DNA of 38,499 bases, taken from positions 1 through 38,499 of the forward strand of contig CAIXAY010000523.1 of NCBI GenBank assembly GCA_903917505.1. Reading direction: 5' to 3'. A model generated the notes under the pieces. That model was not told where the DNA came from, made no database searches, and worked only from the letters and a program-made list of their open reading frames with translations. Of this stretch, positions 21,421 through 38,452 are shown piece after piece. Both the position numbers and the translations under genes were made by a program. Each line of letters opens with the position of its first letter. Within the stretch, counting starts at the first letter, position 1. The DNA comes from an uncultured beta proteobacterium. GTDB taxonomy: Bacteria > Pseudomonadota > Gammaproteobacteria > Burkholderiales > Rhodocyclaceae.

Positions 21421-21470
21421 TGCGCCGCGGTCGGGCGACAGGCGGCACGATTAACACGACAGGAGCTGCG

Positions 21471-24848: not shown

Positions 24849-24876
24849 TTGACAATTGTCCAATTTCGGCTATATT
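24849..24876 (+). promoter_or_regulatory. Sigma70-type promoter with operator-like palindrome
   Basis: A perfect TTGACA (24849-24854) lies 16 bp before TATATT (24871-24876), a near-consensus promoter for the sugar importer operon. The 10-bp perfect palindrome GACAATTGTC (24851-24860) overlaps the -35 box, where a LacI- or GntR-type repressor would block RNA polymerase. The repressor itself is not encoded in the window. Confidence 0.75.
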
Positions 24877-24883
24877 TCCATCT

Positions 24884-25131
24884 TGGCGGGAGCCTCTGCA
24901 TGAGCACCAGCAGCGCGCGCCTGTCAAGAAAACTCTGTCCTCTGCAAGCAATGTCATTCCTGTGCCGGGATAGACTGCTGAGCGGCCTGCGAACAAGCCT
25001 TCAGCCAGGGATGGTTGTTATTTGCAAGACAGGAAGAGAAGTGAAAGACAGCAGCCCATGCCATGTGTGGGCAGTTGCTGGACACGGCGGGTTCAATGTC
25101 AGAACGAGAATTATTTTCTTAGGGGAAGTTT
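24884..25131 (+). promoter_or_regulatory. Long structured 5' leader of the importer operon
   Basis: About 245 nt separate the predicted transcription start from the binding-protein ATG. A hairpin at 25049-25080 has arms 25049-25058 and 25068-25080, ten base pairs, a 3-nt bulge and a 9-nt loop. It lies about 50 nt before the start codon. An ATG at 24900 with a GGGAG site opens a frame that runs far into the binding-protein gene in another phase; it is probably not a protein, though a leader peptide is possible. No known riboswitch is recognised. Confidence 0.45.
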
Positions 25132-26121
25132 ATGAACAGGGCACTCAGGATATTTGTAGTACTGGCGGCGGCGCTCGGGCTTTTTGCCACCGGCGGCTTG
25201 GCATATGGACAAACGGGCAAGAAGATCGTCATCGGTTTTTCGCAGGTCGGCGCCGAAACAGAGTGGCGTGTCGCTATGTCGAAAATCATGAAAGAGACTT
25301 TCGCCAAGCAAAAGGACATGGAACTGCTCTTCTCCGACGCGCAACAAAAACAGGAAAATCAGCTCAAGGCGCTGCGCACTTTCATTTTGCAGAAGGTTGA
25401 TTTCCTCGTCTTCGCTCCGGTCGTGCAGACCGGCTGGGATGCCGTTCTCCAGGAAGCCAAGGAAGCCAAGATTCCGGTCATCTTCATCAACCGGCAGGTC
25501 AAGACGAGCACGGTGAAACTCGAAGATTACACGGTTACCTTCATCGGCCCCGACAACATGAACGCCGGGCGCTATGCGGCCAATTTCATGATCGACAAGT
25601 TCAAGGATGCCAAGGGCCCGATCAATGTCGTGCAACTCGAAGGCACGGTCGGCGCGTCGTCAGCGGTCGAGCGGAAAGCCGGTTTTGATGAAGTCATCAA
25701 GGGCCAAAGCAAGCTGGTGTTGATCAAGACTCAATCGGGCGACTTTACCCGCGCCAAGGGCAAGGAAGTCATGGAAGCCTTCCTCAAGTCGACCAAGGCT
25801 GAAGGAACTAAGATCGATGCCGTCTTCTCGCATTCGGACGATATGGGAATCGGCGCCATGCAGGCGATCGAAGAAGCCGGCCTCAAGCCGGGCAAGGACA
25901 TCATCATTGTCGGTATCGACGGGGTGAAGGGCGCATTCGAAGCGATGATCGCCGGCAAGCAGGCCGCCACGGTCGAAAATCCCGTCGACTATGCCCAGCC
26001 GCTGATCCAGGTCATCCGGGATTACGAAGCGAAGAAGCCGATTCCGGCATGGGTCAAGCTGGACTTCAAAGTGTACCCGGCCTCGGTCGCCGCCAAGGAA
26101 CTGCCGAATCGCCTTTACTAG
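25132..26121 (+). CDS. Sugar ABC transporter periplasmic binding protein (YtfQ-like)
   Basis: A 329-residue periplasmic binding protein of the pentose/hexose (CUT2) type. The signal peptide is residues 1-25 (RIFVVLAAALGLFATGGLAYG). The mature protein closely follows the pattern of E. coli YtfQ, the galactofuranose binding protein: IGFSQVGAETEWR, DAQQKQENQLKALRTFI, FAPVVQTGWDAVLQEAK, LEGTVGASSAVERKAGF, QSGDFTRAKGKEVME and EEAGLKPGKDIIIVGIDGVK. It is first in the importer operon, with an AGGGGA ribosome site. A furanose-form sugar is the best guess for the ligand, but binding specificity changes easily in this family. Confidence 0.92.
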   Translation: MNRALRIFVVLAAALGLFATGGLAYGQTGKKIVIGFSQVGAETEWRVAMSKIMKETFAKQKDMELLFSDAQQKQENQLKALRTFILQKVDFLVFAPVVQTGWDAVLQEAKEAKIPVIFINRQVKTSTVKLEDYTVTFIGPDNMNAGRYAANFMIDKFKDAKGPINVVQLEGTVGASSAVERKAGFDEVIKGQSKLVLIKTQSGDFTRAKGKEVMEAFLKSTKAEGTKIDAVFSHSDDMGIGAMQAIEEAGLKPGKDIIIVGIDGVKGAFEAMIAGKQAATVENPVDYAQPLIQVIRDYEAKKPIPAWVKLDFKVYPASVAAKELPNRLY

Positions 26122-26163
26122 TCGGCTCGCTGCTTATCTTGTCGGGATAAAGCAGAACGTTCT

Positions 26164-26219
26164 TCTTCTACAGTCATAATAAAAACAACAGGGTGCCGGC
26201 GACGGCACCCTGTAGAAGA
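26164..26219 (+). terminator. Nested, mutually exclusive hairpins after the binding-protein gene
   Basis: An 11-bp perfect stem (26188-26198 with 26203-26213, loop GCGA) follows the binding-protein gene. A second 10-bp inverted repeat (26164-26173 with 26210-26219) shares bases 26210-26213 with the first, so the two stems compete. No U-run follows, so full termination is unlikely. The position fits an mRNA-stabilising or partial-termination element that raises binding protein over membrane components. Confidence 0.65.
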
Positions 26220-26260
26220 TGCGTTTCTGGTGAAAAGAAATCGGGGGGCGAAAAGCAAGC

Positions 26261-27781
26261 ATGGGAACAGCGAACGTACTGGTGCGGATGGAAGGCATCT
26301 GCAAGGAATTTCCCGGCGTCAAGGCGCTCGACAATGTCGACTTCGAGTTGCTGCACGGCGAAATTCACGCGGTATGCGGCGAGAACGGCGCCGGCAAGTC
26401 AACCTTGATCAAAGTTTTGACCGGTGTTGAACACAACGAACGCGGCAGCATCTATCTGGACGGCAAGCCGATCAGTCCGAGGACGCCGATGGAAGCGCCG
26501 GCGCTCGGCATCAGCACGGTGTATCAGGAAGTCAACCTGTGCCCCAACCTGTCGGTCGCCGAGAATATCTTCATCGGTCGCGAACCCGTCAAGTTCGGAA
26601 AAATCGACTGGGCGGAAGTCAACCGGCGATCGGCAGTCGCGCTCGCCAGGTTGAACGTCAAACTGGATGTGACCGGCCGGCTCGACGAGTATTCGGTGGC
26701 CATTCAGCAAATGGTGGCGATTGCGCGGGCACTCGACATCGACGCCAAGGTCCTGGTTCTCGACGAACCGACCTCGAGTCTGAACAAGACTGAAGTGGCG
26801 AATCTTTTTCGCATCATGCGCAAGCTGAAAGGCGAGGGCATGGGCATTGTTTTCATTACGCACTTTCTCGAGCAGGTCTACGAGATTTCCGATCGCATAA
26901 CGATACTGCGCAACGGCCTCCTGGTCGGCCAGTTCGAAACGGCCAAGCTCGATCGCCTGCAATTGATCGCCAAGATGATCGGCAAGGATCTCGCGGAATT
27001 CGAAAAGACCATCAAGGAAGACGTTCAGGACGCCGCTGCGGCCGCCAACGAGGATGCTTTCTATCAGGCGAAGAATCTCGGCCAGCAGGGTTCGATCAAT
27101 CCTTTCGATATTCGCATCGGTAAGGGTGAAGTCATGGGGCTGGCCGGATTGCTCGGCTCCGGGCGCACCGAAAGCGCGCGCGTCATTTTCGGCATCGACG
27201 AACCGGACAGCGGCGAAGTTCATGTCAATCGGAAGGAAGTCGCGATCAAGGCGCCGGCCGACGCCATTCACCTGGGCTTCGCCTTTTGTTCGGAAAACAG
27301 AAAGACCGAAGGCATCGTCGCCAATCTGACGATCCGGGAAAACATTGTCCTCGCGCTGCAAGGCAAGCGCGGCATGGGCGCTTACCTGAGCCGCGCGGAA
27401 CAGGTCGAGATCGCCGAGAAATATGTGCGGCTGCTCAACATCGCCACGCCGAGCATCGAGCAGCTGGTCGGCAATTTGAGCGGCGGCAATCAGCAAAAAG
27501 TTCTTCTAGCGCGCTGGCTGGCGACCGACCCGGAATTATTGATCCTCGACGAACCGACGCGCGGCATCGATATCGGCGCCAAAGCCGAGGTGCAGAAACT
27601 CGTTCTGCAACTGGCGGCCGAGGGCAAGGCCGTGCTGCTGATCTCCTCCGAACTCGACGAAATGGTGCGCTGCTGCGGCCGCATGGCGGTCTACAAGGAC
27701 AAGCAGAAGATCGGCGAGCTCACGGGCGCAGAAATTACCGAGATCAACGTGATGAAGACGATTGCCGGGGGACAGAAATAG
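26261..27781 (+). CDS. Sugar ABC transporter ATP-binding protein (YtfR/RbsA-like, duplicated)
   Basis: A 506-residue protein with two fused ABC domains, as in RbsA, MglA and YtfR. The first domain has Walker A GENGAGKST (40-48), a signature variant YSVAIQQM and Walker B VLVLDEPTSSL. The second has the degenerate Walker A GLLGSGRTE typical of this class, the canonical signature LSGGNQQK and LLILDEPTRGIDIG. It powers import at the inner membrane. It starts about 140 bp after the binding-protein gene, beyond the paired hairpins, and its stop overlaps the next start by one base. Confidence 0.94.
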   Translation: MGTANVLVRMEGICKEFPGVKALDNVDFELLHGEIHAVCGENGAGKSTLIKVLTGVEHNERGSIYLDGKPISPRTPMEAPALGISTVYQEVNLCPNLSVAENIFIGREPVKFGKIDWAEVNRRSAVALARLNVKLDVTGRLDEYSVAIQQMVAIARALDIDAKVLVLDEPTSSLNKTEVANLFRIMRKLKGEGMGIVFITHFLEQVYEISDRITILRNGLLVGQFETAKLDRLQLIAKMIGKDLAEFEKTIKEDVQDAAAAANEDAFYQAKNLGQQGSINPFDIRIGKGEVMGLAGLLGSGRTESARVIFGIDEPDSGEVHVNRKEVAIKAPADAIHLGFAFCSENRKTEGIVANLTIRENIVLALQGKRGMGAYLSRAEQVEIAEKYVRLLNIATPSIEQLVGNLSGGNQQKVLLARWLATDPELLILDEPTRGIDIGAKAEVQKLVLQLAAEGKAVLLISSELDEMVRCCGRMAVYKDKQKIGELTGAEITEINVMKTIAGGQK

Positions 27782-28851
27782 TGGAAACAAGAAAGAAGAT
27801 GGACAAGAGGCTCGTCGATAACCAGCTTTTCTGGCCGCTGTTTGCCCTGGTCGTGCTCCTGGTATTCGATTTCTTTTACCTCAAGGGATTTTTTCATATC
27901 GAGGTCATCGACGGGCACCTGTACGGCAGCCTGATCGACATCGTCAACCGGGCGACGCCCCTGATGTTCATGTCGATCGGCATGACCCTGGTCATCGCCT
28001 CCGGCGGCATCGACATTTCGGTCGGTTCGGTACTGGCCATTTCCGGCGCGATCACCGCCATCATGATCGGCGGCGACATGGTCTTCGTCGACGGCGTGCA
28101 GCACCACGTGGCGCATTACCCGATGGCGGTCGCGATCCTTGTCGCGCTCGTCGCCGCCATCGTTTGCGGAATATGGAACGGCCTGCTGATCGCCAAGCTC
28201 GGGGTCAACGCGATGGTCGGCACGCTGATCCTCCTGGTCGCCGGGCGCGGCATCGCGCAGCTCATCGTCGATGGCAACGTCATCACCGTCTACTACGAGC
28301 CTTTCTTCTTCATCGGTTCCGGCTTCTTCCTCGGGCTGCCCTTCTCGATCTTTCTCGTCGCCGCTTTTCTGGCCGCCATCATGTGGCTGGTGAAGAAGAC
28401 CGCTTTCGGGCTTTTTCTCGAGTCGCTCGGTTCGAACCGCGTATCGAGCCGCTTTGCCGGTCTCAACGTGCAGAAGATCATGTGGGCCTGCTATGCGATC
28501 AGCGGTCTTTGCGCCGGCATCGCGGGGATCATCGTCGCCTCCGAGGTGAAATCGGCGGATGCCAACAATGCCGGTCTGTTCATCGAGCTCGATGCCATCC
28601 TGTCCGTCGTGCTCGGCGGCAATTCGATGGCCGGCGGCCGCTTCTCGGTGATTGGCAGCGTTATCGGCGCGCTGGTGGTGCAAACCCTGACGACCACGAT
28701 CTATGCGGTCGGCGTTCCCCCGGAAGTGACCATGGTGGTCAAGGCCCTGGTGGTCATCGTCATTTACTTGATTCAATCGCAAATGGGCAAGAAGACACTC
28801 AAAACGCCGAGCGGCGAAGCGGTGCTGAAGACCGAAGAGGCGAAAGCATGA
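27781..28851 (+). CDS. Sugar ABC transporter permease (YtfT-like), probable GTG start
   Basis: A CUT2-family inner-membrane permease of 356 residues with 8-10 helices. It carries the family block LMFMSIGMTLVIASGGIDISVGSVLAISGA (residues about 60-90) and the C-terminal ELDAILSVVLGGNSMAGGRFSVIGSVIGAL. The GTG at 27781 shares its G with the ATPase stop codon and has a GGGGGA site eight bases upstream, so I prefer it over ATG 27799 (six residues shorter). Its pairing with a second permease matches the ytfQRT-yjfF arrangement. Confidence 0.92.
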   Translation: METRKKMDKRLVDNQLFWPLFALVVLLVFDFFYLKGFFHIEVIDGHLYGSLIDIVNRATPLMFMSIGMTLVIASGGIDISVGSVLAISGAITAIMIGGDMVFVDGVQHHVAHYPMAVAILVALVAAIVCGIWNGLLIAKLGVNAMVGTLILLVAGRGIAQLIVDGNVITVYYEPFFFIGSGFFLGLPFSIFLVAAFLAAIMWLVKKTAFGLFLESLGSNRVSSRFAGLNVQKIMWACYAISGLCAGIAGIIVASEVKSADANNAGLFIELDAILSVVLGGNSMAGGRFSVIGSVIGALVVQTLTTTIYAVGVPPEVTMVVKALVVIVIYLIQSQMGKKTLKTPSGEAVLKTEEAKA

Positions 28852-29849
28852 AGAATTTCCAGATCAACTCGAAGTTCATTCCCCTGCTGATCACCATCGG
28901 CCTGTTCGCCGCGCTGTTCGGCGGGGGTTCCGTCTCTTACCGCGGCTTCTTCTCGATGCAGGTCGTCTTGAACCTGCTGGTGGACAATTCCTTCCTGATC
29001 ATCGTCGGCTTGAGCCAGGCGATGATCATCATTTTGGGCGGCATCGACCTGTCGTGCGGCGCGCTGATTGCGCTGTCGTCGATGGTCGCGGCTTATGCGC
29101 TGGCGCATTTGAACCTGCACCCGGCGCTGGCCATTCTGGCCGTGCTGATCGTCTGCTCGCTGTTCGGTTTCGTGCAGGGCTGGCTGATCACTTATCGCAA
29201 ATTCCAGCCCTTCATCGCCACGCTGTGCGGGATGTTCATTGCCCGCGGCCTGTGTTTCATGATCAATCAGGATACCGTGCCGATCACCGATCCTTTCTTC
29301 GTGACCATGGCCACGACGCGAATCAAGCTGATTCCCGGCGCGGCCATTTCGACCAGCGTGGTCATCGCCCTGGTGATCATCGCCCTCTATGTGTACCTCG
29401 CCCATTTCACGAAATTCGGCCGCGCGATCTACGCCATCGGCGGCAACGAGCAATCGGCGCGGCTGATGGGTCTGCCCGTCGATCGTACCAAGATCATGGC
29501 CTATACCTTGAGCGGCTTTACCTCTGGCCTGGCCGGCATCGTCTTCTGCTTCTACATGCTGTCCGCCTACGGCCTCAACGCCATGGCGCTGGAAATGGAC
29601 GCCATCGCCGCAGCGGTCATCGGCGGCACGCTGATGACCGGCGGCGTCGGCTTCGTCATCGGCTCGGTCTTCGGCGTGATGATCGAGGGCATCATGCAAA
29701 CGCTGATCACTTTCCAGGGCGATCTGAATTCGTGGTGGACGCGCATCGCCGTCGCTTTCCTGCTCTGCGTGTTCATCGTCGTGCAGCGGGTTCTCGTGCT
29801 GCGCAGAGAAGCCAAGAAGCGGATCCGGGCCGTCGAGTTCATTGAGTAG
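28848..29849 (+). CDS. Sugar ABC transporter permease (YjfF-like)
   Basis: The second CUT2 permease, 333 residues. It has the conserved block GLSQAMIIILGGIDLSCGALIALSSM near residues 45-70, the cytoplasmic coupling-loop region FGRAIYAIGGNEQSARLMGLPVDRTK, and EMDAIAAAVIGGTLMTGGVGFVIGSV. These follow E. coli YjfF closely. ATG 28848 overlaps the upstream stop by 4 bp (ATGA) and has a GAGG ribosome site. The heterodimeric permease pair supports a furanose-type importer. Confidence 0.93.
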   Translation: MKNFQINSKFIPLLITIGLFAALFGGGSVSYRGFFSMQVVLNLLVDNSFLIIVGLSQAMIIILGGIDLSCGALIALSSMVAAYALAHLNLHPALAILAVLIVCSLFGFVQGWLITYRKFQPFIATLCGMFIARGLCFMINQDTVPITDPFFVTMATTRIKLIPGAAISTSVVIALVIIALYVYLAHFTKFGRAIYAIGGNEQSARLMGLPVDRTKIMAYTLSGFTSGLAGIVFCFYMLSAYGLNAMALEMDAIAAAVIGGTLMTGGVGFVIGSVFGVMIEGIMQTLITFQGDLNSWWTRIAVAFLLCVFIVVQRVLVLRREAKKRIRAVEFIE

Positions 29850-29868
29850 GGCAATCGGGGAGTCAGGT

Positions 29869-31269
29869 GTGATCAAAGTTACCGTACTATCAGTTTCCGA
29901 CGGACGCGAGCGCGTTCATGACCAGCTCGTCCCCTACATCAGGGAACAGGCCGAACGCATCAAGGCGAGCCTCGAAAAGACCGGCCAGGCGCAGGTGCAG
30001 ATCGTCGACGAGATCATCTGGAACAACGAGCTCGCCAAGTCGCAGGGCCGCGTCGCGCTGGCCGGTTTCCCCGACGCGGTGATCTTCAACGTTCCGGTTT
30101 TCGCTTTCCCCAATTTCTCGATGATCGCCGCTTCGCTGCAGACGGTTCCCTGCCTGGCCATCGCGCCGGTCAACGGCAAGCTGCCGGGACTCGGCGGCCT
30201 GCAGGCGGCGACCAACGCCATCCGCCAGGTCGGCATGCAGTGCGACAAGGTGTGGGGCAACATCGACGAGCCCGATACCCTGGCGCGCGTGATGACCTTC
30301 CTGCACGCCGCGCACGCGGTGAGCACGCTGCGCGGCCAGGTCTATGGCCTGATCGGCGGCCGCAGCATCGGCATGGCCTCGGGCGCGGCCAACGGCGACG
30401 CCTGGATGAAGATCTTCGGCGTCGATGCCGACCATGTCGACCAGTCCGAAATCCTGCGCCGCGCGAATCTGATGGATGAGGCCAAGGTCGATGTCGCGCT
30501 CGCCTGGCTGACCGAAAAGATGGGCGCCATCAACTACGACGGCGACAAGCTGACCGACGATTCGCTGCGCATGCAGATCAAGTGCTACATGGCGACCAAG
30601 GAACTGGTCGCCGAGAAGCGCTTCGATTTCGTCGGCGTCAAATGCCACTACGACCTCAGCGAATACTATGTGACGCAATGCATTTCCGCGGCGTTGTGCA
30701 ACGATCCTTACGACTGGGACGGCGCCAAGGAACCGGTGGTCTTCTCGTGCGAAGCCGATTCGGACGGCGCGCTGACCATGCAGATCATGAAGCTGGTCTC
30801 CGACCAGCCGGTGCTTTTCTTCGATTTCCGCCACTACGACAAGGCCGCCGGCGTCTTCATTTTCTGCAACTGCGGCTCGATGTCGACCTGGTACGCGGCG
30901 CGCAGCAAGGATCCGGGCGAGAACCTGAAGCGGGTCACCCTGCACCCGATCATCGGCAAGTACGCCGGCAAGGGAGCGCACGTGCAATACATCGCACGCG
31001 CAGGCGACGTGACGCTCGGCCGCCTGACGCGCGTCGGCGAGCAGTACAAGATGACGCTGTTCCGCGGCCATCTGCGCGACTTCCCGCAGGAGAAGCTGCA
31101 GGAATCCTGTCCGGTCTGGCCGCACGGCTTCGTCGCCGTAGACATCGATCCCGAGCAGCTGATCCAGAACTACGACAGCAATCACGTGCACGGCATCTAC
31201 GGCGACCACATCGCCGAACTGGTGAAGTTCTGCGAACTCAAAGAGATCCAGTGCGATGTGCTGGGCTAG
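29869..31269 (+). CDS. L-fucose/L-arabinose isomerase family protein, short form, GTG start
   Basis: This 466-residue protein belongs to the FucI/AraA-type isomerase superfamily, which interconverts unphosphorylated aldoses and ketoses at a metal centre. It is about 120 residues shorter than E. coli FucI. Recognisable parts are GLIGGRSIGMASGAANGDAWMKIFGVDADHVDQ and the metal-site block around Glu295 (CEADSDGALTMQ) and Asp319 (LFFDFR), followed by a C-terminal His-rich segment (SNHVHGIYGDH). GTG 29869 is preferred (GGGGAG eight bases upstream) over a TTG at 29842 that overlaps the permease. Being directly downstream of the importer suggests it acts on the imported sugar. The substrate is unknown. 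Confidence 0.82.
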   Translation: MIKVTVLSVSDGRERVHDQLVPYIREQAERIKASLEKTGQAQVQIVDEIIWNNELAKSQGRVALAGFPDAVIFNVPVFAFPNFSMIAASLQTVPCLAIAPVNGKLPGLGGLQAATNAIRQVGMQCDKVWGNIDEPDTLARVMTFLHAAHAVSTLRGQVYGLIGGRSIGMASGAANGDAWMKIFGVDADHVDQSEILRRANLMDEAKVDVALAWLTEKMGAINYDGDKLTDDSLRMQIKCYMATKELVAEKRFDFVGVKCHYDLSEYYVTQCISAALCNDPYDWDGAKEPVVFSCEADSDGALTMQIMKLVSDQPVLFFDFRHYDKAAGVFIFCNCGSMSTWYAARSKDPGENLKRVTLHPIIGKYAGKGAHVQYIARAGDVTLGRLTRVGEQYKMTLFRGHLRDFPQEKLQESCPVWPHGFVAVDIDPEQLIQNYDSNHVHGIYGDHIAELVKFCELKEIQCDVLG

Positions 31270-31297
31270 GACAGGAAACTGAACAGGGGAGACTCCG

Positions 31298-31885
31298 ATG
31301 CAAGAATCACTCGTCACCTTGCTCGCCGAACTTGAAGACTTCGGCAAAGCCAACGACGCGACGATCACCGACCGGCCGCGGCGCATGCTCAACATCACGC
31401 GCGACACCGGCGAGTTTCTCGACGTGCTGGTGCGCGCCACCAACGCGCGCCGCGTACTCGAGATCGGCACCTCGAACGGCTATTCGACGCTGTGGCTGGC
31501 GCAGGCCGCGCGCGCGGTCGGCGGCAAGGTAACGACCGTCGACCTGTCGCGCTTCAAGTTCGAGATGGCGGCCGGCAACTTCGCGCGCTCGGGGCTCGCG
31601 GCATTCATCGTGCAGGTCCAGGACGATGCCGGCAAGCTGCTCGCGCGCCAGGACGACGGCGCCTACGACCTAATCTTCCTCGATTCCGAGCGCCCCGAAT
31701 ATCCGGGTTGGTGGCCCGAGATCCGGCGCGTTCTGAGGCCGGGCGGGCTGCTCGTCGTCGACAACGCCACTTCGCACGTCGCCGAGATGGCGCCCTTCGT
31801 CGCGCTGGTCAAGGCCGACAATCAGTTCGCGAGTTGCCTGGTGCCGGTCGGCAACGGCGAGTTCATGGCGACGCGCGCAAGCTAG
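31298..31885 (+). CDS. SAM-dependent O-methyltransferase family protein
   Basis: A 195-residue class I methyltransferase of the catechol/caffeoyl-CoA O-methyltransferase type. SAM motif I is VLEIGTSNGYSTLWLA (residues 53-68). The acidic residue after strand 2 is in VTTVDLSRFK, and the metal/catalytic Asp regions are LIFLDSERPEYPGWW and GGLLVVDNATSH. It has a GGGGAG ribosome site and lies between two sugar isomerases in one operon. Such enzymes normally methylate catechols or small polar acceptors. Its role in a sugar cluster is unclear: it could modify an intermediate or have a divergent function. Confidence 0.83.
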   Translation: MQESLVTLLAELEDFGKANDATITDRPRRMLNITRDTGEFLDVLVRATNARRVLEIGTSNGYSTLWLAQAARAVGGKVTTVDLSRFKFEMAAGNFARSGLAAFIVQVQDDAGKLLARQDDGAYDLIFLDSERPEYPGWWPEIRRVLRPGGLLVVDNATSHVAEMAPFVALVKADNQFASCLVPVGNGEFMATRAS

Positions 31886-31902
31886 CCCCGGGAGAGCAAG
31901 CA

Positions 31903-32397
31903 ATGCCCGGCGATGAGATCTGGATCGGCAACGATCACGGCGGTTACGAACTCAAGTTGCAGGTCGTCGAGCGCCTGAAGAAGAAAGGGCTCGCCGTGCA
32001 TGACGCCGGCACCCATTCGACCGACATCGTCCGCTATCCGTATTTCGCGGCCGAGGTCGCCGGCGCCGTATCGACGGGCCGCGCGCGCCGCGGCATCCTG
32101 ATCTGCTCGACCGGCATCGGCATGAGCATCATCGCCAACAAGTTCAAGGGCGTGCGCGCCTCGCTATGCACCAGCACCTACATGGGCAAGATGACGCGCG
32201 CGCACAACGACTCGAACATCCTCTGCCTCGGCGGCAAGATCACCGGCGTTTTCGAGGCGCTCGACATTCTCGATGCCTGGCTGGGCACCGACTACGAAGG
32301 CGGCCGGCACGCCATCTCGCTCGGCCTCATCAAGGACGCCGAGGAATCCATCTGCAACCCGGACGGCTGGCATCCCGAGGCAGCGCCAACGGCCTGA
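31903..32397 (+). CDS. RpiB/LacA/LacB-family sugar-phosphate isomerase
   Basis: The 164-residue protein follows the RpiB family: IWIGNDHGGYELK (Asp11-His12), VRYPYFAAEVAGAV, the active-site loop RGILICSTGIGMSIIANK with catalytic Cys68, and His101 in TRAHNDSNILCLGGK. The family isomerises ribose-5-phosphate, allose-6-phosphate, galactose-6-phosphate or tetrulose-phosphates. The usual CGTGIG is CSTGIG here, and there is a 15-residue C-terminal extension (NPDGWHPEAAPTA end). Placement in the sugar operon suggests a special substrate rather than housekeeping RpiB. It ends the plus-strand operon. Confidence 0.9.
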   Translation: MPGDEIWIGNDHGGYELKLQVVERLKKKGLAVHDAGTHSTDIVRYPYFAAEVAGAVSTGRARRGILICSTGIGMSIIANKFKGVRASLCTSTYMGKMTRAHNDSNILCLGGKITGVFEALDILDAWLGTDYEGGRHAISLGLIKDAEESICNPDGWHPEAAPTA

Positions 32398-32408
32398 GCG
32401 CCAGCAAT

Positions 32409-32429
32409 CAGCGGCCGTTCAAGCCGCTG
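32409..32429. terminator. Hairpin at convergence of the two sugar operons
   Basis: A 7-bp GC-rich stem (32409-32415 with 32423-32429, loop of seven) lies in the 47-bp gap between the converging operons. There is no clear U-tract on either side, so termination efficiency is doubtful. Confidence 0.4.
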
Positions 32430-32444
32430 GTCCGGCGCGAACGA

Positions 32445-32843
32445 TTACTTTCTTTCGGAAAGCTCGATCGTCGCCTTGTCCGGCCCCTCGATGTAAGAAA
32501 TGGTCAGGCCCGGCCGCGGACTCCACGGTTCTTCAAGAATGGTCACGCCTTTCGCGCGCAGGTCGGCAACGGTCTCGGCCATGTTGTCTACGGCGAATCC
32601 GAAGTGATCGGTGCCGAAACGGGTCCGCAACGACGGCTGATTTGGCGCATTGTCGCCTTCCTCGCCCTCGAGTTGGCCGAAGACGATGAAGTTGAAACCG
32701 GAGATGTCGAAATAATAGACTTTCGACCCCTTGAATTTCCCCTCGAACGTGATCCTGGCGCCGATCTTATCGACATACCATTGCGCCGTTCTCTCGACAT
32801 CGACAGCCTTGAGATGGATATGATCAACTCTGAAACTTGGCAT
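32445..32843 (-). CDS. VOC (glyoxalase/bleomycin-resistance fold) family protein
   Basis: A 132-residue vicinal-oxygen-chelate protein with two beta-alpha-beta3 modules. It begins MPSFRVDHIHLKAVDVERTAQWY (first metal-ligand His), has GTDHFGFAVDNMAETVADLRAKGV at the start of the second module and ends with TISYIEGPDKATIELSE (Glu ligand). Family members include glyoxalases, epimerases, dioxygenases and resistance proteins. ATG 32843 with a GGGAAG site is chosen over a TTG five codons upstream. It is last in the minus-strand operon. An isomerase or epimerase role would fit, but this is inference. Confidence 0.87.
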   Translation of the reverse strand: MPSFRVDHIHLKAVDVERTAQWYVDKIGARITFEGKFKGSKVYYFDISGFNFIVFGQLEGEEGDNAPNQPSLRTRFGTDHFGFAVDNMAETVADLRAKGVTILEEPWSPRPGLTISYIEGPDKATIELSERK

Positions 32844-32908
32844 GATATTTCTTCCCAATTTGAAAACCGTTAAAATTCATACGGCATGGTGCCGCCGGCA
32901 AAACGCCG

Positions 32909-33733
32909 TCACTCCGAATAGACGCTCTTGATCAGCGGGAGCAAATAAGACGCCGCCTGACTGGCGGCCGAATCCGGATCCGGCACCGGAAATATTTCCA
33001 GCGAGCACCAGCCGGAATACTTGGCCCGCTTCAGACTCCTGAATATGTCGACAAAATCCGTGTGCCCCCAGCCGGGCGCATGCCGGTTTGAATCGGCAAG
33101 ATGGATATAGGCGATGTCGGCGATGTGCTTCTCCAGTTCGCCGCCTATCGTGCGATCCTCGATGTTCATGTGAAAGACGTCAGGCATCAGCTTGAAATTC
33201 GGCCGATTGACTTTCTTGACGAGTTCCGCGCCCTCTTCGACACTGTTGATGAAATTGATTTCATAACGATTGACGGGCTCGAGGATCAAGGTGACGCGCT
33301 TCGCTTGCGCGTATTCGCACAGGTCGGTGAGCAGGTCGATGAATCGGCCTTCGGCTTTTTCCTTGCCGTCCTCGCCTATCCTGCCGCGCACGCGGCCGAT
33401 ATTGACGAGCTTCCCGTAGTTCGCGGCGAGATCGATAAAATCCCTGAACAGGCTGCTGAGCGTATTCCTGCGCGCTGGGTCCGGATCGGTAAACATATAA
33501 CCGGTTTCCGCATAGACCTGGCCGGTTGAAATGCAGGACACTTCCAGGCCGTTATTTTTCAGCAGCGCGTCAAGTTTTGCCGGATTGATTTCGGCTGCGC
33601 TCTTCAAGGCGAGTTCGACGCCTTGGTAGCCCAGTTCGGCGGCGCGCGGGATGAATTCGTCGAAGCCGCGGTAGACGACAAAAGCGGAAGGCAGGGCATT
33701 GCTGGCGGCGATGGCGATGGATAGCTTGATCAT
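32909..33733 (-). CDS. Sugar epimerase/isomerase, xylose-isomerase-like TIM barrel (1)
   Basis: A 274-residue AP-endonuclease-2/xylose-isomerase-like barrel. The expected divalent-metal set can be seen: Glu in LILEPVNRYE, Asp in MPDVFHMNIED, His in YIHLADSNRHAPGWGHTDF and Glu in CSLEIFP. This E-D-H-E pattern with the NR-HxPGxGHxDF segment is typical of D-tagatose 3-epimerase/hydroxypyruvate-isomerase relatives, which epimerise or isomerise free keto-sugars or keto-acids. It lies between the racemase-fold gene (50 bp upstream, with a hairpin) and the VOC gene. The substrate is not known. Confidence 0.88.
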   Translation of the reverse strand: MIKLSIAIAASNALPSAFVVYRGFDEFIPRAAELGYQGVELALKSAAEINPAKLDALLKNNGLEVSCISTGQVYAETGYMFTDPDPARRNTLSSLFRDFIDLAANYGKLVNIGRVRGRIGEDGKEKAEGRFIDLLTDLCEYAQAKRVTLILEPVNRYEINFINSVEEGAELVKKVNRPNFKLMPDVFHMNIEDRTIGGELEKHIADIAYIHLADSNRHAPGWGHTDFVDIFRSLKRAKYSGWCSLEIFPVPDPDSAASQAASYLLPLIKSVYSE

Positions 33734-33748
33734 CTCTTTTCCTCTTCG

Positions 33749-33777
33749 GGCTTCAACAGCGCTGCCGCCGTGAAGCC
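33749..33777 (-). other. Intercistronic hairpin
   Basis: Between the racemase-fold gene and TIM barrel 1, a 7-bp stem (33749-33755 with 33771-33777) closes a 15-nt loop that itself contains the palindrome CAGCGCTG. With no U-run it is more likely an mRNA processing or stability element than a terminator. Confidence 0.4.
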
Positions 33778-33783
33778 GCTATG

Positions 33784-34464
33784 TTAGCTGGAGATGCTTG
33801 CACCGGCATTTTCCAGCGCCGTTTTGACCGCCAGCAGGCCCGGGCGCAAGCTCGACAGCACCGGCTTGCCGGTTGCTTTGGCGATGGTTTCCTGCATGCG
33901 CGCCATCGACGCCTGCGCCAGAATGATGACGCCGACCTGGTCGGCGATGGCCAGCGCGGCTTTCAGCAGGATCTCGTCATGGACTTCCGGCTGGCCCGCG
34001 TTGAGCGCCTGCAGCGCGCCTTTGGCCAGGCCTTCGACGATGTTCACCGATCTCCCCGAGCGGCCGGCGACGGCATGCACCAGGCGCCGGGTCGGCGCCA
34101 GTGTCGTATCGACCGTCGCCAGCACGGCGATGGACGGTGAGATCGCGACGGCCTGCCTGACCATGGGCTCGTCGATTCGCAGGATAGGCACCTTGATGAA
34201 GGGCTGTATCTCGCCGACGATATCGCCCATCGACGAGCAGGTGCTGAGAATCAGATCGACGCCCATGTCCTCGGCGGCGCGGCAATAGGCGAAGAGGCGA
34301 CGCTTGACGTCGCGCGTAACGACATTGCCTGCCGCGATCACGTCGGGAATCAGGCTGTCGTCGAAGATGCTGACCAGGCGCTGCCCGGGCAGGAGTTCAG
34401 CGAACATCGCCTTGGTCGGCTCGATGATCGAGAACGCCGTGTAGATTGCCGCTACTGTTTTCAT
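33784..34464 (-). CDS. Asp/Glu/hydantoin racemase-fold protein lacking the second catalytic Cys
   Basis: A 226-residue protein of the Asp/Glu racemase superfamily (also maleate isomerase, hydantoin racemase and arylmalonate decarboxylase). The first catalytic position is Cys76 (LILSTCSSMGD). The second, usually in an LGCAGM-type motif, reads ILAQASMARM, with Gln184 in place of Cys. A two-base racemase reaction is therefore unlikely; one-cysteine members can act as decarboxylases or isomerases. Start ATG 34464 (MKTVAAIYTA) is chosen on the AGGAGCGGGG site. It lies inside the sugar operon, 30 bp after the epimerase gene. Confidence 0.82.
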   Translation of the reverse strand: MKTVAAIYTAFSIIEPTKAMFAELLPGQRLVSIFDDSLIPDVIAAGNVVTRDVKRRLFAYCRAAEDMGVDLILSTCSSMGDIVGEIQPFIKVPILRIDEPMVRQAVAISPSIAVLATVDTTLAPTRRLVHAVAGRSGRSVNIVEGLAKGALQALNAGQPEVHDEILLKAALAIADQVGVIILAQASMARMQETIAKATGKPVLSSLRPGLLAVKTALENAGASISS

Positions 34465-34494
34465 TTTCCCCGCTCCTTCCGGCATGACGCCCGG

Positions 34495-35511
34495 CTATTT
34501 CAGGTAGAGATCCTTCATTTTCCCCGCGTAATCGTCGTACAGCGCGAGCAGGCGGTCTTCGAGCGCGTCCTTCTCCGGATCGACGCTGTGCGCTTCGGCT
34601 TCGTACCAGGCGAGTATCGATTTGAGGCCCTCGTGCAGCGTGATGTCGGCCTTGAAGTCGGGAACCGCGCTGCGCAATTTCGAGTTGTCGAAGAGGCCGG
34701 CGTAGGTCTTTTCAAAATACAGATGCGAGCAAAGATTGGGCGCCGCGCTGCGCAAGAGTTCCGAGGGAACATGGACGATGGTCGGTGCCTTGCCGACCAG
34801 CCGCCCGAACTCGAGGTAGAGATCGTTCCAGATGCGGCGCTCTTCGCCGGTCACATGGTAGTCCTCGCCGAAAGTCCTGGCGTTGCCGGCGATCGCCACA
34901 TAGCCTTTGGCCAGGTCAGGGACGAAGGTGAAGGTCCACGGCGTGCAGCCGTCGCCGAACATGACCAGCCGCTTGCCGCGGCGGATGCGGTCGACGATGC
35001 CGAAGTTCTGGCGCAGCACGCCGATGTTCGCGGCGCCCGGGCCGTAGGTCAGCGAGGGCCGGACGATGGTGATCGGCAGCTTGTCCTGCTTGATCGACTT
35101 CCACAGCGCCTTCTCCATCTCGGCCTTGTTCAGCGCGTAGGGGAAGACCGGGTCGTCCCACAGCGTTTCCATCGCCTCGACGGTCGGGACGCTGCGGTAG
35201 GGCCGCTGGTAGGCGGCGATGCTCGAAGTCACGACGATGTGCCCGGCGTTGCCGCCGAAAGCGCGCGCCGTCGAGCGCGCGTCATCGGCGGTAAAGCAGA
35301 TCATATCGATAACGACGTCATAACGCGTGCGCTGCATCGCCGCTTCGAATTCTTCTCGGCGCATGCGGTCGCCGACCAGTTGCTCGACGCCGCTGGCCGA
35401 TGGCGCTTTGCTGCCGCGGTTGAAAACCGCGACCTCGTCGCCCTTGGCAACAAATTGCCTGACGATTTCGCGGCTGATGACGCCGGTTCCACCCAGGACC
35501 AGTACTTTCAT
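34495..35511 (-). CDS. NAD-dependent epimerase/dehydratase family protein (extended SDR)
   Basis: A 338-residue extended short-chain dehydrogenase. The NAD-binding motif is VLVLGGTGVISREIVRQF at the N-terminus, the catalytic Ser/Thr region is HIVVTSSIAAYQRP, and the YxxxK pair is in PYALNKAEMEK. RPSLTYGPGA follows, then a substrate-domain region (GCTPWTFTFVPDLAKGYVAIAG). The family oxidises, epimerises or dehydrates sugars and sugar acids, usually as nucleotide forms. With no nucleotidyltransferase here, a free sugar-acid or lactone substrate is plausible. It is 18 bp after the beta-hydroxyacid dehydrogenase gene. Confidence 0.88.
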   Translation of the reverse strand: MKVLVLGGTGVISREIVRQFVAKGDEVAVFNRGSKAPSASGVEQLVGDRMRREEFEAAMQRTRYDVVIDMICFTADDARSTARAFGGNAGHIVVTSSIAAYQRPYRSVPTVEAMETLWDDPVFPYALNKAEMEKALWKSIKQDKLPITIVRPSLTYGPGAANIGVLRQNFGIVDRIRRGKRLVMFGDGCTPWTFTFVPDLAKGYVAIAGNARTFGEDYHVTGEERRIWNDLYLEFGRLVGKAPTIVHVPSELLRSAAPNLCSHLYFEKTYAGLFDNSKLRSAVPDFKADITLHEGLKSILAWYEAEAHSVDPEKDALEDRLLALYDDYAGKMKDLYLK

Positions 35512-35529
35512 TTCCCTGCCCTCCTGACC

Positions 35530-36420
35530 TTACCTGCTGATGACGTAGCCGGACGTCTGTTCGTAGAGCTTGACCACGCTCGACAGATCCTCGTCGCCCC
35601 AGCCCTGGGCCAGCGCCTTGCCGAGCATGCCCTTGACCGCGTCGAAGACAGGCGTCGTCAGGCCGAGGTCGGCGGTGAGCTGCGTCACCAGACCCAGATC
35701 CTTATTCATCATCGCCAGCGAAAACGCCGGCGAGAAATCGCGGTCGAGAATTTTCGGCAGCTTGGCTTCGGCGACCAGGCTGCGGGCGCCGCCCTTGCCG
35801 ACGATTTCGATGAAGAGTTCCGGATCGATGCCGCTCTTGGCGGCGATCGACACCGCTTCGACGAAAGCCAGCAGGTTGATCGCGTACATCGTGTTGTTGG
35901 CCAGCTTGGCGTAGGAACCGTTGCCGCTCGCGCCGAGATAGTAGGCGGCCTTGCCCATGGCCAGGAAGACCGGCTCGCAGCGATCGAAAACAGCCTTGTC
36001 GCCGCCGCCGACCATGAAAGCCAGCGTGCCCTGCTTGGCCTGCGGCGCGCTGCCGGTGACCGGGCAGTCGAGCATGGTCAGGCCCTTGGCGGCGACGATG
36101 CCGGCGAGATTCTTGCTCGTCGATGGCAGGATGGTGCTGCTGTTGAGAATCAGCAGGCCGGGCTTGGCGCCCTTGAGAATGCCTTGCTCGCCGAGCACGA
36201 CGTCTTCGCTGTCGCGGTCGTTCTTGACCATGATCACCACCGCCTCGACGCTGGCCGCGACTTCCTGCGGCGTCGCGCAGCCGGTCGCGCCGTGCGCGGC
36301 CAGCTCAGCGACCTTGGTGGCCAGCTGATCGTAGACGAAGACTTGATAGCCGGCCTTGAGCAGGTTGTCGGCCATCGAAGAACCCATGATGCCCAGTCCG
36401 ATTACACCTATCTTTTTCAT
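35530..36420 (-). CDS. NAD(P)-dependent beta-hydroxyacid dehydrogenase (GarR/LtnD-type family)
   Basis: A 296-residue member of the 3-hydroxyisobutyrate dehydrogenase family. It has the Rossmann motif IGVIGLGIMGSSMADNL, the signature region LDCPVTGSAPQAKQGTLAFMVGG (118-139) and catalytic Lys172 in GNGSYAKLANN. L-threonate 2-dehydrogenase (LtnD) of sugar-acid pathways belongs to the same family, which makes oxidation of a sugar acid possible, but family membership does not give the substrate. It differs clearly from the copy at 21471-22349. A 13-bp hairpin separates it from the upstream TIM-barrel gene. Confidence 0.9.
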   Translation of the reverse strand: MKKIGVIGLGIMGSSMADNLLKAGYQVFVYDQLATKVAELAAHGATGCATPQEVAASVEAVVIMVKNDRDSEDVVLGEQGILKGAKPGLLILNSSTILPSTSKNLAGIVAAKGLTMLDCPVTGSAPQAKQGTLAFMVGGGDKAVFDRCEPVFLAMGKAAYYLGASGNGSYAKLANNTMYAINLLAFVEAVSIAAKSGIDPELFIEIVGKGGARSLVAEAKLPKILDRDFSPAFSLAMMNKDLGLVTQLTADLGLTTPVFDAVKGMLGKALAQGWGDEDLSSVVKLYEQTSGYVISR

Positions 36421-36447
36421 TGCGCCTTCCCTTTCGAAAATGTACGA

Positions 36448-36478
36448 AGGCTCGCCGCGCGAATTGCGCGGCGAGCCT
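36448..36478 (-). terminator. Strong intercistronic hairpin
   Basis: A perfect 13-bp GC-rich stem (36448-36460 with 36466-36478, loop of five) lies between TIM barrel 2 and the beta-hydroxyacid dehydrogenase gene. Downstream on the minus strand there is no U-run, so partial termination or protection of the upstream mRNA from 3' decay is more likely than full termination. Confidence 0.65.
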
Positions 36479-36501
36479 GCTTCGGCAAGACCTGCTGCGA
36501 G

Positions 36502-37431
36502 CTACCGCGGCAAGAGAGTCCTGATGTAGTCGCGGTTCATCGCGCAGACGGTCAGGCCGTCGCCGCCGTAATGCTCGCAGAGAAATGCGCTCTTGTAGCC
36601 GCAATCGAGCGCTTTCTGGATGGCGATGCGGTAGTTGATGATGCCAAGCGCCATCGACGTCGGATAGGAGGCGATGAGATTCTGCGCCTTGTCCTCGACG
36701 CGCATGTAGTTCTTGACGTGCCAGTACTTGAGGTAGGGGCCGAGCTTCTCGATCATCGACAGCCAGTGCTCGACCGGGCGATGCAGGCGGACGAGGTTGC
36801 CGATGTCGGCGTTGGCGCCGACGCAGGGCACATCGACGTCGTTGAGGAATTTCACGGTGCCGTCGGCGGTGCCGATATAGGTGTCCTCGTACATTTCGAG
36901 CGAGACTTCGAGGCCGAGCTGTTCGGCGTGCTTGCCGAGTTCGCGGATGCGCGAGACCGCTTTCTGGTAAATGACCGGATCGTCGGGATTCTTGACGCCA
37001 TCGGCGGTCCAGAACCAGAGTTCGGCTTTCTGCGCCGGCGTCAAAGGCCCGAACAGCCCGAAGGAAACGGCTTCGCAGCCGATCTCCGCGGCCGTCTCGA
37101 GCAGGCGGTGGCTATAGACCAGATGCTCGTCGCCGCGCTCGGGATCGATGACGCTGCGGCGCGCCGTCGAGATCGCCGGAATGGAAAGGCCGATCGACTT
37201 GGTCAGCGCCATGAATTCGCGCCGGCGTTCGGGCGAGAGATCGGCCACGCACAGCCAGCTGTCGGTCGGGTCGAGTTCGGTGAAGCCGGCGTCTACGACC
37301 TGGCTCAGCGTCTTGGCCCAGCCCTCGACCGACTGGTTCTGCACCGAAGTGCCGTCCGGCAGCGTGCCCGGAAAAGTCACCATGGCCGCGGCGATCGGCC
37401 AGTTGTCGCGATTTCTGTTTGCTGTGGTCAT
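36502..37431 (-). CDS. Sugar epimerase/isomerase, xylose-isomerase-like TIM barrel (2)
   Basis: A 309-residue xylose-isomerase-like barrel, larger and distinct from barrel 1. The likely metal residues are Glu in VSLEMYEDTY, Asp in CVGANADIGNLVR, His in LKYWHVKNYM and Glu in FLCEHYGGDGL. ATG 37431 (MTTANRNRDNWPIAAAM) is chosen by its GGAGA site; the frame runs 54 codons further upstream into denD. It sits 22 bp after the DenD-like gene. Two different barrels in one operon point to two isomerisation or epimerisation steps, or one decarboxylase-like step, since some members of this fold decarboxylate 3-keto sugar acids. Confidence 0.86.
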   Translation of the reverse strand: MTTANRNRDNWPIAAAMVTFPGTLPDGTSVQNQSVEGWAKTLSQVVDAGFTELDPTDSWLCVADLSPERRREFMALTKSIGLSIPAISTARRSVIDPERGDEHLVYSHRLLETAAEIGCEAVSFGLFGPLTPAQKAELWFWTADGVKNPDDPVIYQKAVSRIRELGKHAEQLGLEVSLEMYEDTYIGTADGTVKFLNDVDVPCVGANADIGNLVRLHRPVEHWLSMIEKLGPYLKYWHVKNYMRVEDKAQNLIASYPTSMALGIINYRIAIQKALDCGYKSAFLCEHYGGDGLTVCAMNRDYIRTLLPR

Positions 37432-37453
37432 TGCGGTGTCTCCAAAAAAGTGT

Positions 37454-38452
37454 TCAGACCTTGATGCCCTGTTCGGCAATGTAGTCGCGGATGATCGTCT
37501 CGACATCCTTGTCGGAGGTAAATCCCATCCTGCGCGCGCGCTCGTTCGTAAAGCGCACCGGCCAGGTATCGACAATCGCCTGGATGCGCGCATCGGGTTT
37601 CATTTCGACGAGATTGGCGACCTTGTCGCCGGCGATCTTGCGCAGCGCGGCGACCATTTCGGCGACCGACGCCGTATTGCCGGGAAGATTGACGACGCGG
37701 TTCGTTCCCCAAACCGACGCCGGCAGATCGTGGGCGAGGATGAAAGCCTCGATGACCTTCGCCGGCGAGAGCAGCCAGATCGACGTTTCGGCGCTGACCG
37801 GGCACGGCGAGACGACACCGGCAAGCGGCTCGCGGATGATGCCGCTGGCGAACGACGAGGCGGCGAGATTCGGTTTGCCGGCGCGCACCGAGATCGTCGG
37901 CAGGCGCAGCGAACGTCCGTCGATGAAACCCTTGCGGGTGTAATCGGTGGTCAGGTACTCGCAGCACACCTTCTGCGCGCCGTAGGAAGTCTGCGGTGTC
38001 GGCGTCGTCGAGTCGTCGAGGACTTTCGGCAGATCGCCGCCGAAGGCCGCGCACGAACTCGCGAAGACGTAACGCGGCGGCCGCGCCTGTCTGCGGCAGG
38101 TTTCAAGCAGGGCGCGCGAGCCGTCGAGGTTCACCTTGTAGCCGCCGTCGAAATCGGCTTCGGCACCGCCGCTGACCACCGACGCGAGATGGAAGACCGA
38201 AGCCGTGTCGCCGCCCATAATGTCGGCGAGCAGCGCCTTGTCGGTGAGGTCGCCGGTCACGCATTTCAGGCGCGGGTCGGTTTGCGGCGGGAAGGCGATG
38301 TCGAGCAGGGTGATCTGGGTGATCGGCGTCTGCTTGCCTTCGGCGTTGGCCAGCGTGCCGCGCTTGAGCAGGGTGTTGGCCAGGCGGAAACCAATGAAGC
38401 CGCCGCCCCCGGTAATAAGTACTTTTGAACCGGCCCCTATTTTTCTGGACAC
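37454..38452 (-). CDS. DenD-like extended SDR (D-erythronate dehydrogenase family)
   Basis: A 332-residue extended SDR. The NAD motif VLITGGGGFIGFRLANTLLKRG begins near residue 11. TLLDIAFPP (the cofactor-binding acid after strand 2), YVFASSCAAFGGDLP and the catalytic YxxxK in TSYGAQKVCCEYL follow. The overall plan recalls D-erythronate 2-dehydrogenase (DenD) of tetronate catabolism. The DUF1537 kinase and OtnC aldolase partners are not in the window, so the name is withheld. GTG 38452 lacks a ribosome site, and the frame stays open to the window edge (reading SISNSFFQTRFYPKF), so the true start is uncertain. Confidence 0.8.
   Translation of the reverse strand: MSRKIGAGSKVLITGGGGFIGFRLANTLLKRGTLANAEGKQTPITQITLLDIAFPPQTDPRLKCVTGDLTDKALLADIMGGDTASVFHLASVVSGGAEADFDGGYKVNLDGSRALLETCRRQARPPRYVFASSCAAFGGDLPKVLDDSTTPTPQTSYGAQKVCCEYLTTDYTRKGFIDGRSLRLPTISVRAGKPNLAASSFASGIIREPLAGVVSPCPVSAETSIWLLSPAKVIEAFILAHDLPASVWGTNRVVNLPGNTASVAEMVAALRKIAGDKVANLVEMKPDARIQAIVDTWPVRFTNERARRMGFTSDKDVETIIRDYIAEQGIKV

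Follow-up and report, generated by a model that had tools for sequence, protein, structure and literature searches.

Which sugar or sugar acid is served by the gene island at positions 25132-38452 of contig CAIXAY010000523.1? The contig comes from an uncultured beta proteobacterium of the Rhodocyclaceae (assembly GCA_903917505.1), and the whole stretch analysed, 38,499 nucleotides, is referred to here as the window. The island holds 14 open reading frames, all of them present, in two converging runs of seven with a 47-base gap between them (Table 1). The forward run (25132-32397) encodes, in order, a periplasmic binding protein (SBP), an ABC ATPase, permease 1, permease 2, a FucI-like isomerase, an O-methyltransferase (OMT) and an RpiB-like isomerase, and the reverse run (38452-32445) encodes, in coordinate order, a VOC-fold protein, the TIM barrel TIM1, the racemase-fold protein Rac, the extended short-chain dehydrogenase (SDR) SDR2, the beta-hydroxyacid dehydrogenase HBDH, a second TIM barrel, TIM2, and the SDR DenD. 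An earlier note, made from the sequence alone, had described two converging operons of these families, and both the arrangement and the family readings were confirmed by NCBIfam models, run on all 14 island proteins, and Pfam models, run on 10 of these. Equivalog cut-offs were passed by DenD, RpiB and the YjfF-like permease, and the remaining 11 proteins scored below theirs. In the literature and among the models we found no described pathway with this combination of known families, and none of the known pathways available for comparison matched at high identity, as the note had suspected. We regard it as an even proposition that the island encodes the uptake and breakdown of a sugar acid, either an aldonate or a uronate, via the steps proposed below; the carboxylate nature of the substrate is the best-supported part of this reading, and the order of the steps is what we infer. 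The core of the island is conserved, and its substrate is most likely a carboxylate sugar.

The two runs can be treated as one functional unit because two relatives carry members of both within one apparent operon (G labels denote genomes and L labels loci or stretches; L001 is a stretch of G001). In G106 and G291, one strand reads SBP-ATPase-permease 1-permease 2-HBDH-SDR2-Rac-FucI-RpiB, with 62-88% identity to the window, and the joint conservation of both runs, on which the earlier note had staked its interpretation beforehand, was thus found for the core. In G265 the order HBDH-SDR2-Rac-FucI-RpiB is kept and a TRAP set replaces the ABC importer (DctP confirmed; DctQ and DctM named by sequence). 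The neighbourhood comparison that the note had proposed as a check found the FucI gene adjoining the Rac gene in G106, G265 and G291. The L001 layout is DenD-TIM2-Rac against RpiB-OMT. As such, the island contains two separable modules, namely module A (HBDH, SDR2, Rac, FucI and RpiB, with the importer) and module B (DenD and TIM2). In the match lists of Rac and SDR2, 11 contigs are shared, one of them being the window itself, where jittering predicts 0.8, and FucI and SDR2 share 6 contigs, with 0.6 expected; this test covered 119 FucI and 120 SDR2 matches (of 120 listed each) and 76 Rac matches (of 120 listed), with contigs equated by equal size, which is a proxy only. VOC and the IolO-like TIM1 look like accessories outside the core, because they have no match in 16 related stretches (E 1e-8). 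Taken overall, the earlier interpretation is partly supported: a single sugar or sugar-acid unit stands, whereas its idea of a methylated sugar was dropped, since the sole support was the O-methyltransferase, which among the 16 related stretches matches L001 only.

The island is rare in the sampled family of G001, in which TIM2 was found in 5 of 297 genomes, FucI (E 1e-30) in 3 and a close Rac (62-76% identity) in 4, with G053 holding only a 40% relative. For the alpha subunit of ATP synthase, the window has 94% identity with G001 and 89-91% with G106, G236, G265 and G291, which makes a Rhodocyclaceae-like source probable. In the wider class, TIM2 was detected in 1 of 203 genomes, G001 itself. 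The FucI query matched 0 of 291 Clostridia at E 1e-120 and 0 of 349 genomes in the wider order, both being samples without any genome known to match, so that these zeros carry little weight.

The earlier note had left the substrate between a furanose, a methylated or branched sugar and an aldonate; a sugar or sugar-acid unit stands, and the emphasis moves to a carboxylate because the core in relatives is served by a TRAP importer or lies beside a DctP-type sensor, and because TIM2 has an acid dehydrogenase, DenD, as its partner. In G106, G291 and G265, a divergent DctP-like periplasmic protein, a response regulator and a long membrane protein resembling a histidine kinase adjoin the core (all named by sequence). 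Homology links the TRAP binding protein of G265 to the DctP-type sensors of these three genomes, and all have in common an arginine in the motif (L/I)R(T/A)MTGP, which we take to hold the ligand carboxylate. The importer of the window itself is a complete CUT2-type ABC set, and the families of all four subunits are those of the galactofuranose importer YtfQRT-YjfF, as the earlier note had read them. It differs from that importer in that, when tested against the galactofuranose models, only the YjfF-like subunit scored above the cut-off, with the YtfQ-, YtfR- and YtfT-like subunits below, and in that the Asp of the DR motif in the 6hyh chain is aligned with Asn in the SBP of the window, G106 and G291 (3/3). 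This replacement argues for a sugar acid and suggests that the pocket of the island SBP has shifted away from galactofuranose binding.

Because the window DenD is 51-53% identical to the DenD of three tetronate stretches and 68-85% identical to the TIM2-linked copies, it is a paralogue distinct from the DenD of tetronate operons. Roles of DenD, LtnD and OtnK in the use of erythronate are described in PMC10580937. The tetronate operon LtnD-OtnK-OtnC-OtnI-DenD resembles the island in its DenD family, a beta-hydroxyacid dehydrogenase and a xylose-isomerase-like TIM barrel, but the island lacks OtnK and OtnC, and the NCBIfam and Pfam searches placed none of its proteins at the cut-off for OtnI, OtnK or OtnC; HBDH reached 196 of the 350 bits required for LtnD and TIM1 76 of the 325 required for OtnI. 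Tetronate genes, full or partial (named by sequence and PF07005 matches), lie elsewhere in G001, G106, G236 and G265, that is, in 4 of the 5 family genomes with TIM2 (G291 was not examined), and the stretches of G106, G236 and G265 hold a DenD of their own. Given these observations, it is highly improbable that the island is simply the known D-erythronate/L-threonate pathway built from DenD, an LtnD-like HBDH and an OtnI-like TIM barrel, even though DenD passes the D-erythronate dehydrogenase model and the weaker LtnD and OtnI matches point the same way.

Here we propose that a carboxylate sugar would be taken up by the ABC importer, after which DenD would oxidise an aldonate, probably of five carbons, at either C2 or C3. 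The keto acid so formed would be isomerised and/or decarboxylated by TIM2, a metal-dependent enzyme, to give a tetrulose, for example L-erythrulose; conversion of a C5 acid to a tetrulose by oxidation and loss of CO2 would be the simplest version of a DenD-TIM2 route. A kinase of the DhaK family might then phosphorylate the tetrulose, and isomerases of the TIM and RpiB types (EryH/DerI-like) might turn the product into D-erythrose-4-phosphate, which would enter the pentose-phosphate pathway, the kinase and both isomerases being encoded outside the window. HBDH, SDR2, Rac, FucI and RpiB may feed the DenD-TIM2 route or form a parallel branch on unphosphorylated acids, in which aldoses and ketoses would be converted into each other by FucI and the RpiB-like enzyme, changes of oxidation state would fall to the dehydrogenases, and Rac might carry out proton transfer or decarboxylation next to the carboxylate via its single active-site cysteine. 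The lack of phosphorylation is inferred because the core contains no kinase.

Support for a tetrulose exit comes from the neighbours of TIM2, which were counted by tblastn (E 1e-8) in 13 TIM2 stretches; gene calls in the fetched loci were a simple open-reading-frame pick that misses, for example, DenD-TIM2 in G291 and TIM2 in L149. L-erythrulose is phosphorylated by dihydroxyacetone kinase and isomerised to D-erythrose-4-phosphate, according to PMC5992420, which cites others. Near TIM2, DhaK occurs in 9 of the 13 stretches, and at least one of DhaK, TIM and DerI, the enzymes of this exit (DhaK-type kinase, EryH, EryI/DerI), in 10; as DhaK lies so often near TIM2, a DhaK-type kinase can be proposed as the candidate kinase for the DenD-TIM2 branch. 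None of the exit enzymes is encoded in the island, whose RpiB-like protein belongs to another subfamily (80 bits against the DerI model NF051858, cut-off 240). DenD accompanies TIM2 in four stretches (L001, G106, G236 and G291), in each of which the pair adjoins a divergent LysR-like gene, and in G106 and G291 a TRAP-like set follows the pair (both named by sequence) and DerI, TIM and DhaK lie beside it. Both this DerI and the kinase of G106 pass their models, the former NF051858 (244 bits, cut-off 240) and the latter that of the dihydroxyacetone kinase family. A PdxA-like protein is found in three stretches, namely at copy C36 of TIM2 in G265, which adjoins DerI and TIM, and in Sinorhizobium meliloti pSymB and S. 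fredii NGR234 pNGR234b (L157), where PdxA, TIM2 and DhaK lie together; copy C48 in G265 adjoins DhaK and a Zn-dependent alcohol dehydrogenase. The gene table of pSymB (L119:4660-11829) runs PdxA-TctCBA-TIM2 and leaves out the DhaK stretch that comes after TIM2, in which 509 of 569 residues were matched. Among actinobacteria, TIM2 was found in 6 of 197 genomes, five of which were fetched; in four of these five stretches (L148, L149, L151 and L152) it lies with DhaK, DerI, TIM and a gene for a 3-hydroxyacyl-CoA-dehydrogenase-like protein, which was seen in these 4 of the 13 stretches, all actinobacterial, and these clusters probably represent an acid-to-erythrulose route of their own. The fifth, L150, has none of these genes. 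TIM2 thus tends to accompany an acid dehydrogenase of varying kind together with a tetrulose exit, and its E-D-H-E motifs are kept from Rhodocyclaceae to Actinobacteria. As a separate observation, TIM2 in L150 is surrounded by genes resembling a beta-decarboxylating dehydrogenase, a VOC protein and a TctCBA-type transporter (named by sequence). None of the papers searched mentions PDB code 5TNV.

TIM2 was also considered as EryC, which together with EryH and EryI forms an erythritol-pathway set in PMC5992420. This assignment is weakly disfavoured by match counts, as TIM2 matched 1 Rhizobium-labelled record among 95 plasmid records, against 149 matches among 708 records for a DerI query, which collects any RpiB-type protein at E 1e-5.

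Among the enzymes of module A, the FucI-like protein is only a weak match to L-fucose isomerase (67 of 775 bits) and to SftI (72 of 700), with all three Pfam FucI domains present; E295, D319 and H439, which we take to be the metal ligands by analogy with Escherichia coli FucI, are invariant across 25 aligned sequences. In the RpiB-like protein, the motif GGRHAISL stands in place of GGRHxxRV in 5/5 island-type proteins (two annotated RpiB proteins read GGRHQQRV and GGRHENRV), and the second arginine, presumably a phosphate ligand, is lost in all five. The same five proteins (from the window, L001, G265, G106 and G291) also extend at the C terminus by an additional tail that carries the conserved motif NP(A/D)GW(H/Q)P. 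HBDH carries a lysine in GSYAKLANN that we take to be its catalytic residue, and Y125 and K129 of SDR2 are invariant in 32 aligned sequences; the 50 matches listed in a structure search with SDR2 were all generic extended SDRs of at most 22% identity.

Rac is predicted to fold with a pLDDT of 94, and its best PDB matches are glutamate, aspartate and hydantoin racemases, with arylmalonate decarboxylase further down the list. The earlier note had called it a one-cysteine protein, which holds for the active site; the sequence itself has two cysteines, at positions 61 and 76 of 226, and only C76 (C83 in the numbering of alignment A1) lies in an active-site motif. This first active-site cysteine is invariant in 35 aligned sequences, and the second site reads AQ(A/G)SM in 35/35, so that Rac does not have the catalytic cysteine in both halves by which two-cysteine Asp/Glu/hydantoin racemases are recognised. 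Distant relatives of Rac (L002-L080, 37-54% identity) lie beside acid-sugar kinases and RuBisCO-like proteins, which speaks for a sugar-acid substrate: matches to Rhizobium etli genes across 80 Rac loci are OiaK-like in 44, OiaX-like in 37 and ApnO-like in 2, many of these loci being short, so that absence means absence from that stretch. Within four genes of Rac, the kinase family occurs in 33 of 69 loci and the RuBisCO-like family in 29 of 69, a tally that omits the 11 of 80 loci without a picked Rac gene in the cluster. The kinase and the RuBisCO-like protein of L002, one of each being scanned, scored 453 and 459 against cut-offs of 700 and are relatives of OiaK and OiaX but not members of these families. 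The abundance of OiaK- and OiaX-like genes and scarcity of ApnO at these loci hints at a variant 3-oxo-isoapionate route. A literature search turned up no paper pairing the racemase family with an acid-sugar kinase or RuBisCO-like protein. A FucI search (E 1e-60) of the genomes that hold 34 of these 80 loci gave 3 matches, all at 33-36% identity. Separately, G291 and G106 hold second Rac copies (L115 and L116), 37% paralogues that lie directly ahead of two consecutive split-transketolase-like genes (named by sequence).

Here we tentatively speculate, although we hold this idea to be rather unlikely, that the island is a kinase-free sugar-acid front end, in which isomerases of the FucI family and of the RpiB-like type, with its changed anion site, might act on unphosphorylated acids, and the one-cysteine Rac might perform the key step beside the carboxylate, whether by epimerising, isomerising or decarboxylating a keto acid; the same Rac family would also serve kinase and RuBisCO-like routes in Paenibacillus and Bacteroidetes, whose fetched stretches mostly lack ApnO.

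Several observations weigh against a sugar-acid route in the form proposed. The island contains no kinase or aldolase, and no complete carbon route can be drawn from it. The usual substrates of FucI- and RpiB-type enzymes are neutral sugars or sugar phosphates, and the arginine lost from the RpiB-like protein is weak evidence because DerI, named as a phosphosugar isomerase, likewise lacks the RpiB arginines. FucI and Rac share 2 contigs in the match lists (0.4 expected, 99th percentile 2), so that this pair is not significant alone. The exit enzymes DhaK, TIM and DerI are absent from 3 of the 13 TIM2 stretches (L001, G236 and L150), among them the closest relative, L001, whose sole partial DerI match is its RpiB-like gene, and G265 has TIM2 twice with no DenD match around either copy. 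The E-D-H-E motif of TIM2 aligns with that of an epimerase family, and PdxA enzymes decarboxylate unaided, which weakens the case for TIM2 as a decarboxylase; its metal motif is compatible with an epimerase as well, and the CO2-losing enzyme may be TIM2 or another. Furthermore, G236 has DenD-TIM2 without FucI and without a close Rac, and G001 lacks FucI, and therefore modules A and B need not share a substrate.

The importer, being nearest to furanose binders (YtfQ and 6hyh), leaves room for a neutral furanose, for instance galactofuranose or arabinofuranose, that would be imported, isomerised by FucI and oxidised stepwise by the dehydrogenases. We consider this explanation unlikely, although the FucI fold with its intact candidate metal residues would suit it, since SBP, ATPase and permease 1 fall under the galactofuranose-transporter cut-offs, the Asp of the binding pocket is replaced as described above, the same core goes with a TRAP importer in G265, beside carboxylate-type sensors, and the core contains no kinase.

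Quite unlikely is a variant of the D-apiose/D-apionate pathways, in which the DenD paralogue would oxidise apionate (3-C-hydroxymethyl-erythronate) and an OiaC-like TIM2 would convert 3-oxo-isoapionate to L-erythrulose. OiaC is presumably the 3-oxo-isoapionate decarboxylase; model NF042435, tried as an OiaC model, proved to be that of the dehydroshikimate dehydratase QuiC. In its favour, TIM2 co-occurs with DhaK, TIM and DerI, which make up an L-erythrulose exit, the R. etli p42f cluster with annotated oiaX likewise carries an annotated triose-phosphate isomerase, RpiB-family isomerase and DhaK, and the distant Rac relatives lie beside OiaK- and OiaX-like genes. The pathways defined by OiaX, OiaK and ApnO further resemble the island in their CUT2 ABC importer, and the TIM-DerI exit recurs near TIM2 in its relatives. 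However, R. etli OiaX, OiaK, ApnO, ApsD and ApnL have no match in the window (tblastn, E 1e-6, 40% of length); because none of these five marker genes matches, the known D-apiose route is not encoded there. The names of OiaK, ApnO, ApsD and ApnL are our assignments, made by position, only oiaX being so named in the record. Weak matches link R. etli DerI and the sugar-binding protein to the window RpiB (33%) and SBP (29%), and FucI, HBDH and SDR2 would find no place in the D-apiose/D-apionate route. The D-apiose route is described in PMC6302742; a literature search on the catabolism of D-apionate turned up no paper.

That two unrelated pathways lie side by side, with modules A and B acting on different substrates, is very unlikely in our view. 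The modules are far apart or on separate contigs in three genomes (G106, G291 and G265), and module B occurs in G236 without FucI or a close Rac, which would fit such an arrangement; against it, the window and L001 both have Rac on the same strand as DenD and TIM2, joined in the window by SDR2 and HBDH.

Two further routes were rejected. An inositol route would rest on the sub-threshold match of TIM1 to the 5-keto-L-gluconate epimerase IolO, its best family (233 bits, cut-off 300); IolO belongs to the inositol route, but the best NCBIfam matches of the other island proteins include no inositol enzyme. A sulfoquinovose route is contradicted by the SftI score of the FucI-like protein given above and by 172 of 348 bits of HBDH for sulfolactaldehyde reductase, and a literature search turned up no paper joining sulfoquinovose isomerase and L-fucose isomerase.

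The island represents a compact, testable case of an unassigned catabolic route that brings its own importer. Should the carboxylate reading hold, the identity of the substrate would point to the functions of at least three enzyme subfamilies now listed by fold alone, namely the 466-residue FucI-like protein, the one-cysteine racemase-fold protein and TIM2, for which a structure is solved (5tnv) under a generic name. Since TIM2 and the racemase fold extend far past this genome, many annotations would improve.

Table 1. Features of the island in window coordinates. Paired bit values are score/model cut-off.
Feature	Position	Strand	Evidence
Promoter-like site TTGACA-16-TATATT	24849..24876	+	11/12 consensus positions; upstream of importer operon
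SBP, periplasmic binding protein, YtfQ family	25132..26121	+	NF041827 319/510 bits; best PDB match 6hyh, 248 bits
GC-rich inverted repeat, 11 pairs	26188..26213		between SBP and ATPase genes (intergenic 26122-26260)
ABC ATPase, YtfR family	26261..27781	+	NF041861 686/850 bits; 84% to G106 and G291
Permease 1, YtfT family	27799..28851	+	NF041862 317/535 bits; 87-88% to G291 and G106
Permease 2, YjfF family	28848..29849	+	NF008630 393 bits, cut-off 363 passed
FucI-like metal-dependent aldose-ketose isomerase, 466 aa	29869..31269	+	PF07881, PF07882, PF02952
O-methyltransferase	31298..31885	+	PF01596; beside RpiB also in L001, 78%
RpiB-like isomerase, altered C-terminal motif	31903..32397	+	TIGR01120 180 bits, cut-off 139 passed
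VOC-fold protein	32445..32858	-	PF00903
TIM1, xylose-isomerase-like TIM barrel near IolO	32909..33733	-	NF041099 233/300 bits, not passed; PDB TM0416, 144 bits
Rac, Asp/Glu-racemase fold	33784..34464	-	PF01177; start 34464 set by relatives (alignment A1)
SDR2, extended short-chain dehydrogenase/epimerase	34495..35511	-	PF01370
HBDH, beta-hydroxyacid dehydrogenase near tartronate semialdehyde reductase	35530..36420	-	PF03446, PF14833; NF008592 258/397 bits
TIM2, xylose-isomerase-like TIM barrel	36502..37431	-	PDB 5tnv family, 295 bits
DenD-family SDR	37454..38452	-	NF043036 442 bits, D-erythronate dehydrogenase cut-off 325 passed

The earlier note had seen no kinase, aldolase or regulator in the window; this holds for the island, in which the NCBIfam and Pfam searches detected none, whereas the upstream frames scanned, a subset, include a protein resembling ABC1-type kinases and a response-regulator/TPR protein, both from outside the sugar families. 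Promoter-like sites number 4 in the region where shuffling predicts 3.5, and only match quality favours the one ahead of the importer operon, which lies at the start coordinate given in the earlier note and alone is no evidence of function. Inverted repeats such as the one between the SBP and ATPase genes are common downstream of highly expressed binding-protein genes. Just upstream of the island, at 21462-22349, the window encodes a second beta-hydroxyacid dehydrogenase (318/341 bits against tartronate semialdehyde reductase), whose gene sits after an MFS transporter and ahead of KefF/KefC.

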